The notes below the pieces were generated by a model. It searched no databases. It had not been told where the DNA came from and worked only from the letters and a program-made list of their open reading frames with translations. From assembly GCF_014530035.1 (NCBI RefSeq), contig NZ_JACVMX010000010.1, positions 1-64,000 of the forward strand: a stretch of 64,000 nt of DNA, in the 5' to 3' direction. Origin of the DNA: Leucobacter sp. cx-328 (lineage in GTDB: Bacteria > Actinomycetota > Actinomycetes > Actinomycetales > Microbacteriaceae). Below are positions 33,971 through 40,618 of this stretch, one piece after another (position 1 is the stretch's first letter; each line of letters opens with the position of its first letter). The position numbers and the translations under genes are program-made.

Positions 33971-34003
33971 CCGCACGAAAGTAATGTAGGTAAGCGGAGC
34001 ACA

Positions 34004-34042
34004 GTGGTGGGTCCGGTGATCGCACCGGACCCACCACTTTCT
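34004..34042 (+). terminator. Terminator after clpB
   Basis: A perfect 15-bp stem (GTGGTGGGTCCGGTG at 34004-34018 with its complement at 34023-34037) with a four-base loop, then a T-rich tail. Confidence 0.88.
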
Positions 34043-34065: not shown

Positions 34066-34521
34066 ATGCCAAATACGCCGTATCTGAGTGGAACAGAACG
34101 CACTCGCATGCCGGCCAAGGTCGCTGCGGGCCAGATCGGCTGGGTGCTGGGGCAACGCGAGTGCTCAGCGTCCGAGGTTCAAGAACGTGACTTGATGGTT
34201 CGTGACGGAAATCTGAGAGTGTTGCGACTCTTGCCTGCACACGGCAATGACTGGCCACTATGGGAACGTGGTCTCGGCCCTGTGGAGCCCGCTGACGTCG
34301 GGCTGAGCGAATCGCTCGCGAGTGAGCTGAGGCACTGGGGGAGCCAATGGCAGCGAGCTGCAGATGCGGAGCTCGACGATGCTGACCAACTCAGCGAGGC
34401 ACAGTTTCTTGATCGGGAGTGGTTTGTCCAGGGCGAAGACCTCTGCGAATTCCTTGCGGTAGAGGTTTGGGAACGCGCAGCTGTCGTGCCCGAGTTCCGG
34501 AGCTATTGGGGCGAGTTTTGA
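34066..34521 (+). CDS. Hypothetical protein, unrecognised
   Basis: 151 residues, soluble, tryptophan-rich and acidic in the second half (LRHWGSQWQRAADAELDDAD, then DREWFVQGEDLCEFLAVEVWE). No signal peptide, membrane helix or known motif is visible. A good GTTAGGAGA ribosome-binding site 8 nt before ATG supports it as a gene. It lies between the clpB terminator and the fusion enzyme gene and is probably transcribed alone. Confidence 0.65.
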   Translation: MPNTPYLSGTERTRMPAKVAAGQIGWVLGQRECSASEVQERDLMVRDGNLRVLRLLPAHGNDWPLWERGLGPVEPADVGLSESLASELRHWGSQWQRAADAELDDADQLSEAQFLDREWFVQGEDLCEFLAVEVWERAAVVPEFRSYWGEF

Positions 34522-34576: not shown

Positions 34577-34621
34577 GAAGCGGGACTCACCCTGAGACAA
34601 TAGAGGGGTGAGTCCCGCTTC
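34577..34621. promoter_or_regulatory. 16-bp-arm inverted repeat over the fusion gene start
   Basis: GAAGCGGGACTCACCC (34577-34592) and its perfect complement (34606-34621) flank 13 bases containing GACAAT, a -10-like hexamer ending 6 nt before GTG 34608. The right arm covers the start codon. As DNA it would be an operator over a leaderless promoter; as RNA it could end transcription of the preceding gene, though no T tract follows. Confidence 0.6.
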
Positions 34622-37541
34622 TGATGTGTACCGTGCCGAGCGACTGGTCGCCCGGTTTAACCGTTCAACGAACCGTTTGATCGCAGGCACCCGCATGGGT
34701 GTCATGCCTGATCCGGCAGCGCCCGAAATGACCGCGACGCTGCAGCAGATGCTCGCGGGCATGGGCGCGCGTGTGACAGTGCTTGAGCAGGGCGCTCCCG
34801 TGCCAGGCGACGTTGAGGTCGTGTTCGCGGCAGACGTTGCAGCGCTGCCCGCAGGCCAAGAAGCCGGCCCGATCCGCATCGCCGAGGGCGCAGCCCTGGT
34901 CGGCCCCGCGGCCACAGCAACCGAGGGTGACTCGCTCGCGAAGCGCGGTGCCGCACGGATTGAGTGGTCGCACCAGTACATGCCCATCACGCGTGAACTC
35001 GCAGAGGAGTTCGCGGTGAGCGGCGCCCTGCGCGGAGTACGTATCGGCGTCGTGCTCGTGCTCGAGCCCAAGACCGCGGTACTCGTACTTGAACTTGCTC
35101 GCGCCGGCGCAGATGTGCGCGTCTTCGCGCCAGCAAACGAGGTTGATCCCGAGGCGGCAGCAGCCCTGCGCGCCCGCGGCATCGTCGTGCTCGCGAGCGA
35201 CGACGCCGACGCAGAACACGAGGCAGAGCAGGCGCGCGACCTCATCCGCTGGCAGCCACAGCTGCTCATCGACGACGGCGCTCACCTCATTCGCCTCGCG
35301 CACCTCATGCCCGAGGCGCGCGCCTCGCTCCGCGGTGCGGCAGAGGAGACCACGAGCGGTGTACGCCCGCTCCGCCACATGCACGCAGACGGCGAGCTCG
35401 AGATTCCCGTTGTTCCCGTGAACGACTCGGCAGTGAAGACCCTCTTCGATAACCTGCACGGCACGGGCCAGACCTGCGTCTTCGCAATCGTTGACGAGCT
35501 CGAAACCCTCCGCGCGATGCGTCCGGTACCCCAGACAGCAGACGCGACCTGGCTCGTGCTCGGCTACGGCCCGGTCGGTGCAGGCGTCGCCCGTCACGCC
35601 CGCGCCCTCGGTGCGAAGGTCATCGTCGCAGAACTCGATACCGTTCGTGCCCTCACCGCTGAAGCCGATGGCTACGACGTCGCGCTCGCCGCAGAGGCAG
35701 CCGCGATTGCCGACGTGATCGTCTCGGCGTCTGGCGTTCGCGGCACGGTCGACCTGCCCCTCGCACGTCACGCTCGCCCCGGCACGATCTTCGCGGTCGC
35801 TGGCGGCGTTGACGCCGAGATCGATTTCGAGGGCCGCGCCATGCACGACCTCACACCCCAGATCAGCACAGTTGACGTTGGTGCTGCGGGATCCGCGCAC
35901 GAAGTCATCATCCTGGCCCACGGTTACGGGGTGAACTACACGGCGAGCGGCGGCAACCCCATCGAGATCATGGACCTCTCGTTCGCCGCCCAGCTTGCCG
36001 CGCTGCGCCAGCTCCTCGACATGGGGGCGCTCGGTGACGCGAAGCTCGCGCCGGGCATCTTCCCGCTCTCGAGTGATCAAGAGCAGCGCATCGCACGCCT
36101 CGCGCTCGCGACCCACGGCAGTACTGTCGACACGAAGAACGCCGCCCAGGCGCACGCCGCCGCTGATTGGCGCCGCCAGCGCTACCAGGCCCAGGCTGCC
36201 CCGAGCGAGACGGGCGCGGATCGCACCGCAGCACCAGAGCAGGCCGGCAAGCCCGCGAAGTTCATCGAAACCCCGACGGTCACGGTTTACAGCGCTGACC
36301 TGGTCATCCCGGTGACCGGCCCACGTATTGTGAACGGCGCCGTCGCCGTGCGCGGTGACCGCATCATGCACGTTGGCGACCGCGGCTGGGTCGTGCAGTC
36401 GCTGCGCGATAACGGCATCGACTTTGCGGAAGAGCACTGGGACGGCGTGCTCACGCCCGGTCTCGTGAACGGCCACACACACCTGCAGTACACGAGCATG
36501 GCTGAGGTTGCGAAGCGCACCTACAATGGCTTCGACGACTGGGCGCTCGCGTTTGACGCGATCTACGACCATCAGGTGCACGACTGGGCTGCCTCTGCAG
36601 CGCAGGGCGCGCGCCTCGCGCTCGCGAGCGGTACGACTGCCGCGGCAGACGTTGTGACGGATACCTCCGCGGCGACCGCCCTGCACGACGCCGGCATGCA
36701 CGGCATCGCGTACTGGGAGGTCATGGGCTGGAGCAACGACGAGTGGCAGCAGACCGGCCGCGACCAGACAGCGCTGCAGCTCGACACTATGCCCGCGACC
36801 CCAGGCGTCGGCGTCTCGCCGCACGCGCCGTACTCGCTTGAGGTGCAGCCGCTGCTCGACGTCCCCGACCTCGTACGCGGCCGCGGAATGCGCCTGCACA
36901 TCCACCTCGCTGAAGCGCACATGGAGCTCGAACACCACTCGAACCACGATGAGTGGGCAGAGCTGGGCGCTGAGAGCTTCCGCGCGCTGCGCAACCGCGG
37001 TGTCGGTGTGAGCTCGACCCAGTTCGTCGATCATCTCGGCGTGCTCGGCCCCGATTGTCACATCGCACACGGCGTCTACATGACTGACCGTGACCGTTCG
37101 CTCCTGCGTGCCCGCGGCACCTCGGTCGCGCTCTGCCCGCGCTCGAACGAGGTCATCGGCCTCGACATGCCTCCCGTCGCCGCCTACCTGCGCGAGGGGA
37201 ACCTCATCTGCGTCGGCACTGACTCGCTGTCTTCCTCGCCGTCGCTTGATCCGCTCGCTGACGTCGAGCTGCTCTACAAGATTGCGCGCGAGCAGGGCTA
37301 CGGCGATCACGATCTACACCAGCGCCTGTTCAACGCGGCGACCCTCGGCGGCGCGACAGCCCTCGGTCTCGGCGTTGGCCCACAGCGGATCGGGCAGCTC
37401 GCCGTCGGCGCCCTCGCCGACCTCGCGTTCTTCGACATCGACGCTTCTGACCCCGATGCGGCTCTCGCGGAGCTCGTCGAGGCAGGTGCTGGCACCTGCC
37501 GCCGCACGATCGTTGCCGGCGTTGAGCGGTTCCGCGCGTAG
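34608..37541 (+). CDS. Fusion: SAH-hydrolase-like domain plus amidohydrolase (deaminase-like) domain
   Basis: 977 residues. The N-half (about 1-520) is an adenosylhomocysteinase homologue: LIDDGAHL, AEETTSGV, VNDSAVKTLFDN and the NAD-binding GYGPVGAG align with the family. However, the canonical GCRES Cys is Thr (HGTGQT), the NIGHFD His is Gly (AGGVD), and the GHPS His is Asn (GNPI). After a Gln/Ala/Pro linker (about 520-555), the C-half is an amidohydrolase of the MTA/SAH deaminase group. Its metal and catalytic residues are NGHTHLQ (about 623), HIHLAEA (about 764), IAHGVY and GTDSLSS (about 871). Methanocaldococcus recycles SAH by deamination (DadD), then S-inosylhomocysteine hydrolysis by an SAH-hydrolase homologue. 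This protein could do both. The reaction is inference. Confidence 0.85.
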   Translation: MSPASDVYRAERLVARFNRSTNRLIAGTRMGVMPDPAAPEMTATLQQMLAGMGARVTVLEQGAPVPGDVEVVFAADVAALPAGQEAGPIRIAEGAALVGPAATATEGDSLAKRGAARIEWSHQYMPITRELAEEFAVSGALRGVRIGVVLVLEPKTAVLVLELARAGADVRVFAPANEVDPEAAAALRARGIVVLASDDADAEHEAEQARDLIRWQPQLLIDDGAHLIRLAHLMPEARASLRGAAEETTSGVRPLRHMHADGELEIPVVPVNDSAVKTLFDNLHGTGQTCVFAIVDELETLRAMRPVPQTADATWLVLGYGPVGAGVARHARALGAKVIVAELDTVRALTAEADGYDVALAAEAAAIADVIVSASGVRGTVDLPLARHARPGTIFAVAGGVDAEIDFEGRAMHDLTPQISTVDVGAAGSAHEVIILAHGYGVNYTASGGNPIEIMDLSFAAQLAALRQLLDMGALGDAKLAPGIFPLSSDQEQRIARLALATHGSTVDTKNAAQAHAAADWRRQRYQAQAAPSETGADRTAAPEQAGKPAKFIETPTVTVYSADLVIPVTGPRIVNGAVAVRGDRIMHVGDRGWVVQSLRDNGIDFAEEHWDGVLTPGLVNGHTHLQYTSMAEVAKRTYNGFDDWALAFDAIYDHQVHDWAASAAQGARLALASGTTAAADVVTDTSAATALHDAGMHGIAYWEVMGWSNDEWQQTGRDQTALQLDTMPATPGVGVSPHAPYSLEVQPLLDVPDLVRGRGMRLHIHLAEAHMELEHHSNHDEWAELGAESFRALRNRGVGVSSTQFVDHLGVLGPDCHIAHGVYMTDRDRSLLRARGTSVALCPRSNEVIGLDMPPVAAYLREGNLICVGTDSLSSSPSLDPLADVELLYKIAREQGYGDHDLHQRLFNAATLGGATALGLGVGPQRIGQLAVGALADLAFFDIDASDPDAALAELVEAGAGTCRRTIVAGVERFRA

Positions 37542-37588
37542 CGATCCGCACCCCACGACTGACTTCTCCACCAGAAAGAGTGCAGCAG

Positions 37589-38020
37589 ATGACTGACGCA
37601 GCATACGATCCGATTACTGAGCTCGGCCTTGAACCGCATCCCGAAGGTGGCTACTACCGCCGCATGTACACGGCGACCGATGCGATTGAGACCGCCGGCG
37701 GTCTGCGTCCCGCAGTAACGCTCATTCACTTCTGGCTGCCCGCCGGTGACCGCTCTGAATGGCACGTCGTCTCGTCTGACGAGATGTGGCTGTGGCACGG
37801 CCCCGGCCCCCTTGAGCTGCAGCTCGGCGGTACCGGCGAGAATCCGGTCGACGGCGACAAGATCTTGCTCGGCGCCCCGGGAACCCCTGGCGCGAAGCAG
37901 CAGGTGCTCGTGCCCGCAGGGGTCTGGCAGCGCACCAACCCCGGCAGCGAAAATGTCCTCGTGAGCTGCATGGTTACGCCAGGTTTCGACTTTGCCGACT
38001 GGCGTCTCGAGACCGAGTAG
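37589..38020 (+). CDS. DUF985-family cupin protein
   Basis: 143 residues of the DUF985 (cupin_5) type. The family start LGLEPHPEGGYYRRMY, the central FWLPAGDRSEWHVVSSDEMWLWHGP with the metal-type His, and the end VSCMVTPGFDFADWRLE are all present. Biochemical function of the family is not settled. ATG 37589 has AGAAAGAG upstream; GTG 37580 is a less likely alternative. It lies 47 nt after the fusion enzyme and may be co-transcribed with it. Confidence 0.88.
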   Translation: MTDAAYDPITELGLEPHPEGGYYRRMYTATDAIETAGGLRPAVTLIHFWLPAGDRSEWHVVSSDEMWLWHGPGPLELQLGGTGENPVDGDKILLGAPGTPGAKQQVLVPAGVWQRTNPGSENVLVSCMVTPGFDFADWRLETE

Positions 38021-38077
38021 AATTGACCATTAGCGCGCAAATCCGCAGCCGCGCGCCAGAACCTTTGGAGACAAACA

Positions 38078-38914
38078 GTGAACAGCAAGTTCCTTCGTCG
38101 TTCGTCCGCAGTAGCGGGCGCCCTCGCAGCATTGCTCGCGCTCTCGTCGTGTGCAGGCGCTGACACGGCAGCAGAGACCACTCACGGCCTCGAGACCGTT
38201 ACCCCGGGCAAGATCACCATTGCTACCGGCAACCCGGCGTACTCGCCGTGGGTAGAGAATGATGACCCCGAGTCGGGCGAGGGCCTCGAAGCAGCAGTTG
38301 CGTACGCAATCGCTGACGAGCTTGGCTTCGCCAAGGACGAGGTTGTTTGGACCCGCACCCCCTTCGACGCGGCAATTGCGCCGGGTCCGAAGGACTTCGA
38401 CTTCAACATCCAGCAGTACTCGGCTACGCCCGAGCGTGAGAACGCTGTCGACTTCTCGACGCCGTACTACGAGACCGGCCAGGCTGTTGTCACCACCGAA
38501 GATTCGAAGGCAGCAAGTGTTGCATCGATCGCTGACCTGAAGAACGTCAAGCTCGGCGTTGCAGCAGCTTCGACCTCGATCAAGGTAGTCAAGGAAGTTG
38601 TGGGCGTTGACCCCCAGATCTTCAACAGCACTGAGGACGCAGTCATGGCGCTCCAGGCTGGCACCATCGACGCGCTCGTCACCGACATCCCCACCGCGTT
38701 CTACAACGCGTACGGCGTGCTCGAGAACGGCAAGCTCGTTGGCCAGATCGAAAGCTCGCAGGCTGGCGACAAGCTTTCGGTGCTCCTTGCAAAGGATTCG
38801 TCGCTGACGAAGCCCGTGAGCGAGGCAATCGACACCCTTCGTGAGAACGGCACGCTCGATGAGCTCGCTGAGAAGTGGATCGCTGACAACAGCGGCGCTC
38901 CGGTTCTGAAGTAA
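38078..38914 (+). CDS. Amino acid ABC importer, substrate-binding lipoprotein
   Basis: 278 residues. The lipoprotein signal ends in LSSC (Cys25). The SBP family 3 fold starts near GKITIATGNPAYSPW and has the DFNIQQYSATPERENAVDFSTPYY block. It starts with GTG 38078 after TTTGGAGA. It is the first gene of a receptor-permease-ATPase operon that follows the fusion enzyme and cupin genes. A substrate linked to sulfur amino acids is possible from context only. Confidence 0.9.
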   Translation: MNSKFLRRSSAVAGALAALLALSSCAGADTAAETTHGLETVTPGKITIATGNPAYSPWVENDDPESGEGLEAAVAYAIADELGFAKDEVVWTRTPFDAAIAPGPKDFDFNIQQYSATPERENAVDFSTPYYETGQAVVTTEDSKAASVASIADLKNVKLGVAAASTSIKVVKEVVGVDPQIFNSTEDAVMALQAGTIDALVTDIPTAFYNAYGVLENGKLVGQIESSQAGDKLSVLLAKDSSLTKPVSEAIDTLRENGTLDELAEKWIADNSGAPVLK

Positions 38915-38927
38915 GGCTTTTCACGAA

Positions 38928-39803
38928 TTGTCTTCAGTGACTTCAAGTGACCACGGCGCCCGACCTGTACCCAGTGAGGTAGAGGTCGGGCGCCGTGCGT
39001 TCCGTCGCAAGCAGAGCGTTAAGTCGCTCGCCATCAGCATCCTCAGCACGATCGTCTTTGCGATAGTTGTGTGGATCGCGCTCGTCAACAGCCCAGGCTG
39101 GGAAGACGTCAAGCGCTCGTTCTTCGACTGGGAGATCGCAAAGGCTTCGGCCCCCGAAATTCTCAAGGGCCTCTGGCTCAACGTCCAGGTGCTGTTCTTC
39201 ACCTCGATCCTCGTGGCGATCTTCGGCTCGCTGCTCGCGATCGCTCGTACGCTCAAGGGCGCGGTCTTCACCCCGATCCGCCTCGGCGCAGCTCTGTACA
39301 CCGACTTCTTCCGTGGCATTCCCGTGCTGCTCGTCCTGTACTTGGTTGGCTTCGGTCTGCCCGGTCTCGGCTTCGTCGGACACCTGCCCATGCAGGTCTG
39401 GGGCGCAATCGCGCTGACCCTGACCTACTCCTCGTACATCGCAGAGGTGCTTCGCGCTGGTATCGAAGCCGTGCACCCCTCGCAGCGCATGGCAGCGCGC
39501 TCGCTTGGCCTGAGCCACGCGAAGACGCTCCGCCTCGTCGTCATGCCGCAGGCCGTCCGCAAGGTCACGCCCGCGCTCATGAACGACTTCGTGTCCATGC
39601 AGAAGGACGTCGGCCTGATCTCGGTGCTCGGTGCGGTTGACGCGATCCGCGCCGCCCAGATCGAGGTCGCCAGTGCCTACAACTTCACGCCGTACGTCGT
39701 CGCGGGTATCTTCTTCGTGCTGCTGTCGTGGCCGATGATCCGCCTGACCGACTGGTACACGGCTCGCGCCCAGCGCCGTGAGCAGATTGGTGGTCAGGTA
39801 TGA
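38928..39803 (+). CDS. Amino acid ABC importer, permease
   Basis: 291 residues with a basic N-terminus, then about five membrane helices. The EAA loop is seen as SSYIAEVLRAGIEAVHPSQ and ARSLGLSHAKTLRLVVMPQA. The start is uncertain: TTG 38928 or GTG 38937, neither with a clear ribosome-binding site. It ends in a 4-nt overlap with the ATPase gene. Confidence 0.9.
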   Translation: MSSVTSSDHGARPVPSEVEVGRRAFRRKQSVKSLAISILSTIVFAIVVWIALVNSPGWEDVKRSFFDWEIAKASAPEILKGLWLNVQVLFFTSILVAIFGSLLAIARTLKGAVFTPIRLGAALYTDFFRGIPVLLVLYLVGFGLPGLGFVGHLPMQVWGAIALTLTYSSYIAEVLRAGIEAVHPSQRMAARSLGLSHAKTLRLVVMPQAVRKVTPALMNDFVSMQKDVGLISVLGAVDAIRAAQIEVASAYNFTPYVVAGIFFVLLSWPMIRLTDWYTARAQRREQIGGQV

Positions 39804-40555
39804 GTTCAGAGAAGGCAACTACGCCCGTCCTGAGCGTCCGTGGTGTGCACAAGTGGTTCGGGGAGACTCCCGTCCTGCGCGGCATCGATCTCGAAGTCAA
39901 CGCGCACGAGGTCGTCGTACTCATCGGCGCGAGTGGCTCGGGCAAGTCGACCCTGCTGAAGACCATCAACCTGCTTGAGCGGGTTGACGACGGACAGATC
40001 TTCCTCGGTGACGAAGACATCACCGACCCCCGCGCGAACGTCGATAGCGTGCGCGCCAGGGTTGGCGTCGTGTTCCAGCACTACAACCTCTTCCCGCACC
40101 TCACCGTGCTCGACAACGTCACCCTTGCAAGCCGCAAGGTGTTTGGCGTCTCGAAGCGCGAGGCAGAGAAGCGCGGCATGGAGCTCCTCGAACGCATCGG
40201 CCTCGGTGCGAAGTCGAAGGAATACCCCGACCGCCTCTCGGGCGGTCAGCAGCAGCGCGTGGCGATCGTGCGTGCGCTCGCGACTGATCCGCGCCTGCTT
40301 CTGCTTGATGAGATCACGAGCGCGCTCGATCCGCAGCTCGTCGGTGAGGTCCTTGATCTCGTAGGTGAACTCAAGCAGTCGGGCTCGACCATCGTCATGG
40401 CAACACACGAGATGTCGTTCGCACGCAAGGTCGCAGACCGCGTCGTGTTCCTCTCGAAGGGCCGCCTCATCGAGTCGGGTACCCCCGAGCAGATCTTCGA
40501 AAACCCGCAGCACCCCGAGACGAAGGAATTCCTCTCGCGCGTTGCCGGGCTGTAA
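39800..40555 (+). CDS. Amino acid ABC importer, ATPase
   Basis: 251 residues of the GlnQ type. Walker A is GASGSGKST, the Q-loop is VVFQHYNLFPHLT, the signature is LSGGQQQR, Walker B is LLLLDEITSALDPQ (an Ile in place of the usual Pro), and the switch His is in ATHEMSFA. It is the last gene of the operon; a terminator follows. Confidence 0.93.
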   Translation: MSSEKATTPVLSVRGVHKWFGETPVLRGIDLEVNAHEVVVLIGASGSGKSTLLKTINLLERVDDGQIFLGDEDITDPRANVDSVRARVGVVFQHYNLFPHLTVLDNVTLASRKVFGVSKREAEKRGMELLERIGLGAKSKEYPDRLSGGQQQRVAIVRALATDPRLLLLDEITSALDPQLVGEVLDLVGELKQSGSTIVMATHEMSFARKVADRVVFLSKGRLIESGTPEQIFENPQHPETKEFLSRVAGL

Positions 40556-40581: not shown

Positions 40582-40618
40582 GAAGCCCCGTGCGCCGATT
40601 GGTGTGCGGGGCTTTTGC
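40582..40618 (+). terminator. Terminator after the importer, copy 1 of a direct repeat
   Basis: GAAGCCCCG pairs with CGGGGCTTT around a loop containing CCGATTGG, followed by T residues. The 37 nt recur at 41442-41478 with one difference (G/A at the 13th position). Confidence 0.85.

Follow-up and report, generated by a model that had tools for sequence, protein, structure and literature searches.

The window analysed here is a stretch of 64,000 nucleotides from Leucobacter sp. cx-328 (contig NZ_JACVMX010000010.1, positions 1 to 64,000), which carries at 34608..37541 (+) a stop-free frame with a GTG start that encodes a fusion protein of 977 residues. The protein joins a paralogue of S-adenosylhomocysteine (SAH) hydrolase (SAHH), hereafter SAHH2, to a deaminase-type amidohydrolase. 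The SAHH2 half (residues 109-530; 34932..36197, +) was delimited by Pfam and NCBIfam matches, active-site residues and tree position; it is connected by an Ala/Pro/Glu-rich linker of ~25 residues (36198..36272, +) to the amidohydrolase half (residues 556-977; 36273..37538, +), recognized from its Pfam match and metal site. Three Pfam families match above their cut-offs: AdoHcyase (85.6 bits, cut-off 25; best stretch 236-516), AdoHcyase_NAD (68.4 bits, cut-off 27; 314-447) and Amidohydro_1 (614-971). Together with the 3'-oxidation residues described below, which are conserved in 81 of 81 SAHH2 sequences, the first two matches place the SAHH2 half in the broad adenosylhomocysteinase family. An uninterrupted fusion of these two halves was the core of an original prediction made from the sequence, and the frame, the Pfam matches and the same fused frame in a second isolate bear it out. 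The description as two halves is incomplete, since residues 1-108 (34608..34931, +) fit neither of them; profile comparison by hhalign, in which ~50 residues align, suggests that they are a vestige of the beginning of the NAD-binding domain of an SAHH.

The same fused frame is present in a near-identical Leucobacter isolate (L070; L and G numbers are our locus and genome labels), with 99.5% identity in the SAHH part and 99.8% in the amidohydrolase part. Three more fused frames were found in Microbacterium MPKO10 (L071), Rarobacter (L081) and genome G242 (L003), and a chance frame or an assembly artefact was therefore rejected. Within its own genome of 2.64 Mb the fusion is the sole full-length match, the only other match being a second amidohydrolase of 35% identity. 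Among 297 genomes surveyed in the order, 34 carry both halves, the present one included: 2 as a fusion and 32 as adjacent genes. Mapped on a tree of 25 rows, the fused state requires two changes, and one change suffices in none of 200 bootstrap trees; thus the simplest reading of the tree is that SAHH2 and the deaminase were probably fused on two separate occasions.

The fusion gene belongs to a cluster (34608-40555) in which all genes downstream of it lie on the same strand and are closely spaced, a context that had gone unnoticed in the original prediction. They encode a cupin_5 protein of the DUF985 family (37580..38020, +; PF06172, 129.1 bits), an amino-acid-type solute-binding protein (SBP) of an ATP-binding cassette (ABC) transporter (38078..38914, +; PF00497, 80.3 bits), an ABC permease (38928..39803, +; PF00528) and an ABC ATPase (39800..40555, +; PF00005). 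To place the cluster among its relatives, we took the best 80 of 288 relatives of SAHH2 from a scan of species genomes. Besides four Pseudomonadota loci and one Clostridiales metagenome-assembled genome, they represent Microbacterium, Curtobacterium, Leifsonia, Demequina, Bifidobacterium, Alloscardovia, Schaalia and others; some names (of the Demequina, Bifidobacterium and, below, Rubrobacter types) are presumptive, assigned by contig match or tree position. Marker searches over the 80 loci, some of whose contigs end early, found SAHH2 in 80, the amidohydrolase in 79 (in the exception, L077, it is absent from the stretch examined), the cupin in 71, the amino-acid-type SBP in 69, the permease in 67 and the ATPase in 66. 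The Leucobacter protein is thus the fused form of a conserved core of SAHH2 and amidohydrolase within a cluster that has its own importer.

In an alignment of 67 SBP rows with amino-acid binding proteins, an Arg and an Asp are kept, which we take to bind the α-amino acid, and by sequence the SBP is a family 3 protein, as in amino-acid (PAAT) ABC importers. The importer type is variable: an energy-coupling factor (ECF) transporter replaces the ABC importer in 4/80 loci (Cryobacterium and three Rathayibacter), and a sugar-type ABC transporter does so in 3/80 (L086, L088 and L095) as well as on a plasmid of Roseateles sp. XES5 (L152). LacI-type regulators scoring above 290 bits are found in 7/80 loci and at L152, and a nucleoside hydrolase gene lies inside the cluster of L086, L088 and L152. 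At four loci, three of Alloscardovia and one of Bifidobacterium (L097 5759-6598, L124, L126 and L089), a relative of MTA/SAH nucleosidase that scores below the curated cut-offs lies beside or within the cluster. Outside the core, no Pfam family recurs in more than 7 of the 98 flanking open reading frames (ORFs) scanned, with MFS_1 at the top (7); the 98 came from 38 loci, out of 153 ORFs selected at 41 loci. Right after the ATPase gene lies a terminator-like hairpin of 15 pairs (40582..40615, +), notable for its stem length and place alone, and a second one of 16 pairs lies at 34003-34038; the five terminator-like sites found compare with 4.4 expected by chance, a chance-level number. A promoter scan found none, with 0.6 expected. 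Between the 16-pair hairpin and the fusion there is an ORF of 151 residues (34066-34521) with no Pfam match.

The active site of SAHH2 combines an intact redox centre with the loss of specific histidines. According to a published account of SAHH (PMC4647836), with residues numbered as in the mammalian enzyme, E156 and D190 bind the 2'-OH and T157 and K186 the 3'-OH of the substrate, while H55, D131 and H301 encircle its 5' position. Water addition uses H55 as its base, D131 donates the proton to C4', and H301 stabilizes and gates, whereas H353 touches the adenine via its main chain. Across 81 SAHH2 sequences D131, E156, T157, N181, K186, D190 and N191 are invariant, as are the three glycines of the NAD motif. 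By contrast, the two water-activating residues, His55 and His301, are found in none: the H55 position is occupied by Val in 64, Phe in 6, Ile in 5, Thr in 5 and Met in 1, the H301 position is Gly in 81/81 and the H353 position Asn in 81/81. In the window, alignment places the lost H55 at V151 of the segment VLEPK (residues 151-155; 35058..35072, +), the glycine at residue 400 (35805..35807, +) and the asparagine at residue 450 (35955..35957, +). Arg229 is one of SAHH2's own conserved residues (80/81). Since the losses are common to a clade whose remaining active-site residues are invariant, a decaying pseudogene was rejected.

The segment VLEPK retains the E-x-K of the purine motif described by Koeppl et al. 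(PMC10978960), who report that H-x-E-x-K enzymes prefer S-inosylhomocysteine (SIH) and H-x-T-x-E/Q enzymes SAH, and that in the former the Glu contacts N1 and the Lys O6 of hypoxanthine. The Glu and Lys are present in 81/81 SAHH2 sequences and the His in 0/81, so that the full motif of SIH-preferring enzymes is found in none. The purine site of SAHH2 thus reads, from its sequence, as hypoxanthine-type, with a whole redox centre but no water-activating residues at C5'. The earlier motif list (GYGPVGAG, EETTSGV, VNDSAVKTLFDN, Cys to Thr, GHF to GGV and GHP to GNP) was recovered in full, but it had overlooked both the loss of H55 and the E-x-K. Its explanation of the histidine changes as a hypoxanthine pocket does not hold, as H55 and H301 are water-activating and gate residues and H353 meets the base by its main chain (PMC4647836). 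The Cys-to-Thr change was also rejected as a mark of new function, because the chains of Thermotoga maritima, Pyrococcus furiosus and Methanococcus maripaludis read GTGQS as well. Because both H55 and H301 are missing throughout, ordinary hydrolysis by SAHH2 is not assured, and the enzyme may not complete the normal reaction.

Because NPIEIMD or [LM][VIT]LEPKTA[VNI] served as search patterns for the 80 loci, the counts at H55, E-x-K and H353 depend in part on these patterns, while H301 and the remaining positions lie in neither. Subsets free of this dependence gave the same picture: none of the 37 loci found with NPIEIMD only has His at the H55 position, all 13 found with the second pattern only have Asn at the H353 position, and both changes recur in the 13 loci other than the window that were reached purely through similarity.

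Phylogenetic analysis placed SAHH2 in one clade (support 100/100 with 29 rows and 100/99 with 20 rows), apart from canonical SAHH, from the three SIH-type references and from SAHH1, the paralogue encoded upstream in some clusters. The hydrolase half had been called divergent on sight, and the tree agrees, with no clustering with canonical SAHH; neither does SAHH2 group with the characterized SIH-preferring enzymes, here three reference chains only. A sharp separation from SAHH is opposed by one of five curated adenosylhomocysteinase models, NF004005, whose cut-off the SAHH half passes (303.3 bits, cut-off 275); it stays below the cut-off of the other four (NF004009, TIGR00936, NF004010 and NF004008). 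A Rubrobacter-like group (S3) has also lost H55 and H301, keeps E-x-K and H353 and forms its own clade. As joining S3 to SAHH2 is not rejected (p-AU 0.485), the loss of H55 and H301 may have happened once or twice. The S3 members (L181 6910-8220, L182 7376-8644, L185 7657-8919, L153 and L183) read P-x-E-x-K or A-x-E-x-K and NAGG; ECF transporter genes lie near the S3 gene in L181, L182 and L185 (3/5) and were not found near L183 and L153. In the family of the window, L064, L065 and L069 carry another divergent SAHH subfamily with H-x-E-P-K, D131 replaced by Asn, D190 by Glu and H353 by Asn.

Directly upstream of SAHH2, six clusters encode an SAHH1 in which H-x-E-x-K, NAGH and GHP are all intact (6/6): four of Pseudomonadota (L077, L086, L088 and L095), the Roseateles plasmid (L152) and an actinobacterium (L184). 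As SAHH1 is of the intact SIH type, its position suggests SIH as an intermediate of the pathway. On the Roseateles plasmid (L152 7694-10206) both paralogues are annotated 'adenosylhomocysteinase', which for SAHH2, lacking the catalytic histidines, is likely a misannotation. Five of the six clusters group in the SAHH2 tree, with a support of only 87/65, and L088 is outside that tree.

In the other 76 of the best 80 loci the SAHH2 frame extends upstream by at least 74 residues, except in Cryobacterium (L091), which has a separate ORF of 184 residues; these extensions are open stretches with unverified starts, and L086 too has such a stretch, overlapping SAHH1. In local hhalign comparison, an N-terminal profile of 78 rows matches the start of the NAD-binding domain at positions 180-228 of an archaeal SAHH/SAHH1 profile. 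The probability is 82.4% with the window as first row, 86.2% with the L091 ORF and 81.0% with L072, compared to only 10.2-23.9% for the same profiles against the SAHH2 profile and at most 0.1% for 20 column-shuffled controls of the L091-first profile. Plain blastp gave a match at E 0.01 for 28/78 N-terminal rows. We thus read residues 1-108 as a putative remnant of SAHH1. In the family history that this would imply, a tandem SAHH1-SAHH2 pair lost most of SAHH1, the rest became joined to SAHH2 and, in the window, the product would also have been joined to the deaminase.

SAHH1 and the cupin are mutually exclusive. Among 82 loci, counted with a looser cut that adds one cupin to the 80-locus marker count, six have SAHH1 without the cupin, 72 the cupin without SAHH1, none both and four neither (in L127 and L145 the contig stops behind the amidohydrolase gene; the cupin is missing from L119 and L128). 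Fisher's test gave 6e-7, a value that overstates independence as the loci are related by descent. Since the two never co-occur, the pattern suggests that the cupin may take over some task of SAHH1.

The amidohydrolase half has a complete mononuclear metal site, with the ligands HxH, H, H and D and the catalytic Glu present in 80/80 rows. Its highest NCBIfam scores are for 8-oxoguanine deaminase (106.1 bits), TRZ/ATZ (105), 5'-deoxyadenosine deaminase (100.5, cut-off 522) and the aminofutalosine family (92.7), and the MTA/SAH deaminase model gives 42.4 bits against a cut-off of 779. All NCBIfam deaminase scores are far under the cut-offs, which leaves the half outside both of these curated families. 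The metal site attributed to the MTA/SAH deaminase group is thus whole, but the sequence does not single out that group.

The genomic background bears on the relation to the methyl cycle. With canonical SAHH defined as a full-length match to PF05221 that scores 444 bits or more, 33 of the 34 holder genomes in the order also carry canonical SAHH or LuxS: LuxS in 14 and canonical SAHH in 19 others (6/19 in one search and 13/15 in another). The genome of the window alone has neither. Replacement of the methyl-cycle enzyme was rejected as a general role on this ground, and salvage is the likelier one; in this order the cluster usually exists beside a functional SAH route, which agrees with the salvage of imported material. 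On the question raised earlier, whether genomes with the fusion lack canonical SAHH, the answer is mixed: the own genome, G242 (which has LuxS) and Rarobacter have none, and Microbacterium MPKO10 has one. Among 11 further genomes, none of them searched for LuxS as such, a full-length canonical SAHH is present in those of L086, L088, L071 and L110 and a high-scoring one in two pieces in L095 and L077; none was found in those of L091, L113, L081, L097 and L118. Other genes of the own genome code for a purine nucleoside phosphorylase (NF006054, 283.7 bits, cut-off 218), a nucleosidase-like protein below its cut-off (PRK05634, 112.9 bits, cut-off 129) and a second MtaD-like deaminase below all cut-offs. 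On its contig C5 (L151 4614-5909 and 6492-7124) this second deaminase gene lies ~0.6 kb from a short nucleosidase-like gene. In two genomes of the Demequina type without canonical SAHH (G028 C22:100853-101275 and G173 C29:222822-223244), a divergent LuxS gene adjoins the SAHH2 gene.

Comparison with known systems revealed a mosaic of similarities. SAHH2 resembles the SIH-preferring hydrolases of P. furiosus (7r37), M. maripaludis (7r3a) and T. maritima (3x2e) and the M. jannaschii SIHH in fold, E-x-K, GTGQ in place of GCRE and redox residues, and its match reaches almost to the C-terminal end of the first three chains, stopping only a few residues from it. It differs from them by lacking H55, H301 and H353, by its separate clade, by the NAD-domain relic in front and by the deaminase fused or nearby. 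The amidohydrolase shares with the DadD-type SAH/5'-deoxyadenosine deaminase of the SIH route the superfamily, the full metal site and the pairing with an SAHH homologue, whereas it scores far below every curated cut-off compared. With canonical AhcY, SAHH2 has in common the fold, the redox residues and the NF004005 match, but AhcY has H-x-T-x-E/Q and all catalytic histidines, and the two are only 27-30% identical (11 canonical loci, L040-L050). The S3 group is like SAHH2 in its E-x-K and its lack of H55 and H301 and unlike it in keeping H353. Altogether, the SAHH2 system resembles the SIH route yet departs from SIH hydrolases in two defining respects, the motif His and the position in the tree. 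A literature search, covering the titles and abstract beginnings of open-licence papers, found the archaeal SIH route and nothing on this cluster, the fusion, the residue pattern, SAH uptake or a cupin partner.

We propose, with about even confidence for and against, that the fusion is the core of an import-coupled nucleoside salvage cluster that performs import, deamination and NAD-dependent release of the 5' group. With transport running inward, the ABC importer would bring in an adenosine derivative whose 5' substituent bears an amino acid, for which SAH is the best candidate, and the amidohydrolase would deaminate it to the hypoxanthine form, SIH in that case. In the presumed next step SAHH2 would bind the hypoxanthine nucleoside via E-x-K, oxidize C3' with NAD and free the 5' substituent, and the freed nucleoside would pass to a nucleoside hydrolase or phosphorylase. 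Several observations weigh against this proposal: H55 and H301, needed to activate water at C5', are absent in 81/81 SAHH2 sequences, the amidohydrolase has no clear nearest characterized relative, some importers are of a sugar type not suggestive of SAH, the S component of the ECF system in L091 comes closest to riboflavin transporters (74.5 bits, cut-off 99), which does not suggest SAH either, and the part played by the cupin is unexplained.

The strict form put forward in the original prediction, a bifunctional SIH route in which a full SAH deaminase feeds an SIH hydrolase that yields inosine and homocysteine, with water added in the absence of H55 and H301, is possible, though we lean against it. 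The universal E-x-K, the complete redox residues, the deaminase partner at 79/80 loci, the intact SIH-type SAHH1 of six sister clusters, the separation from canonical SAHH and the NF004005 match all speak for it; they stand against the loss of H55 and H301 in 81/81, in enzymes whose Gly-His-Phe is stated to be fully conserved across SAHHs (PMC4647836), and against another SAH route in 33/34 holders. That exactly the water-activating residues are lost, with the redox and C4' residues kept, is what would be expected of a hydration-deficient lyase that oxidizes C3' and expels the 5' group, no water being added, to give a 4',5'-didehydro nucleoside (or accepts another nucleophile), which an intact SAHH1 or else the cupin would finish. 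The exclusion of SAHH1 and cupin in 82 loci and the S3 group, likewise devoid of H55 and H301 with H353 in place, point the same way, but the exclusion may reflect few events, the loci being related by descent, and the literature search, at the level of titles and abstract beginnings, found no enzymatic role of cupin_5; we consider this lyase rather doubtful. Its wider form, a hydration-deficient SAHH class in many actinobacteria, bifidobacteria included, that acts as an NAD-dependent lyase on deaminated nucleosides with a 5' substituent, receives them through an importer and a deaminase of its own and is completed by an intact SIH hydrolase paralogue or the DUF985 cupin, is speculative and a shade more doubtful. 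Such a cupin activity would, to our knowledge, be the first catalytic role of the DUF985 family.

The imported compound could also be another adenosine derivative, modified at the 5' or N6 position, with SAHH2 cleaving the deaminated nucleoside by a 3'-keto-driven elimination, for example of the base. An amidohydrolase no closer to SAH deaminases than to others, importers of varying type and SAHH2's own residues such as Arg229 would suit this alternative, which the intact SIH-type SAHH1 at six loci makes unlikely in our view. It is highly improbable that SAHH2 is a non-catalytic partner or nucleoside sensor: all three active-site histidines are missing, as such a role would allow, but the 3'-oxidation residues and the NAD-motif glycines are invariant in 81/81, and SAHH2 persists where SAHH1 is gone. 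We give equally little credence to a methyl-cycle role in which the fusion would be the main enzyme that recycles SAH in the cell. Its own genome, with no second SAHH and no LuxS, would fit that role; SAHH or LuxS in 33/34 holders and the nucleosidase-like gene of the own genome, albeit below its cut-off, oppose it.

The cluster is spread over many bacterial genomes, bifidobacteria among them. If the proposed salvage function is true, these bacteria would take up and salvage SAH-like nucleosides by a dedicated route separate from the methyl cycle, the archaeal S-inosylhomocysteine route would extend to common bacteria, SAHH presence would have to be used with care as a marker of the methyl cycle, and the function of the DUF985 cupin would gain a defined test.

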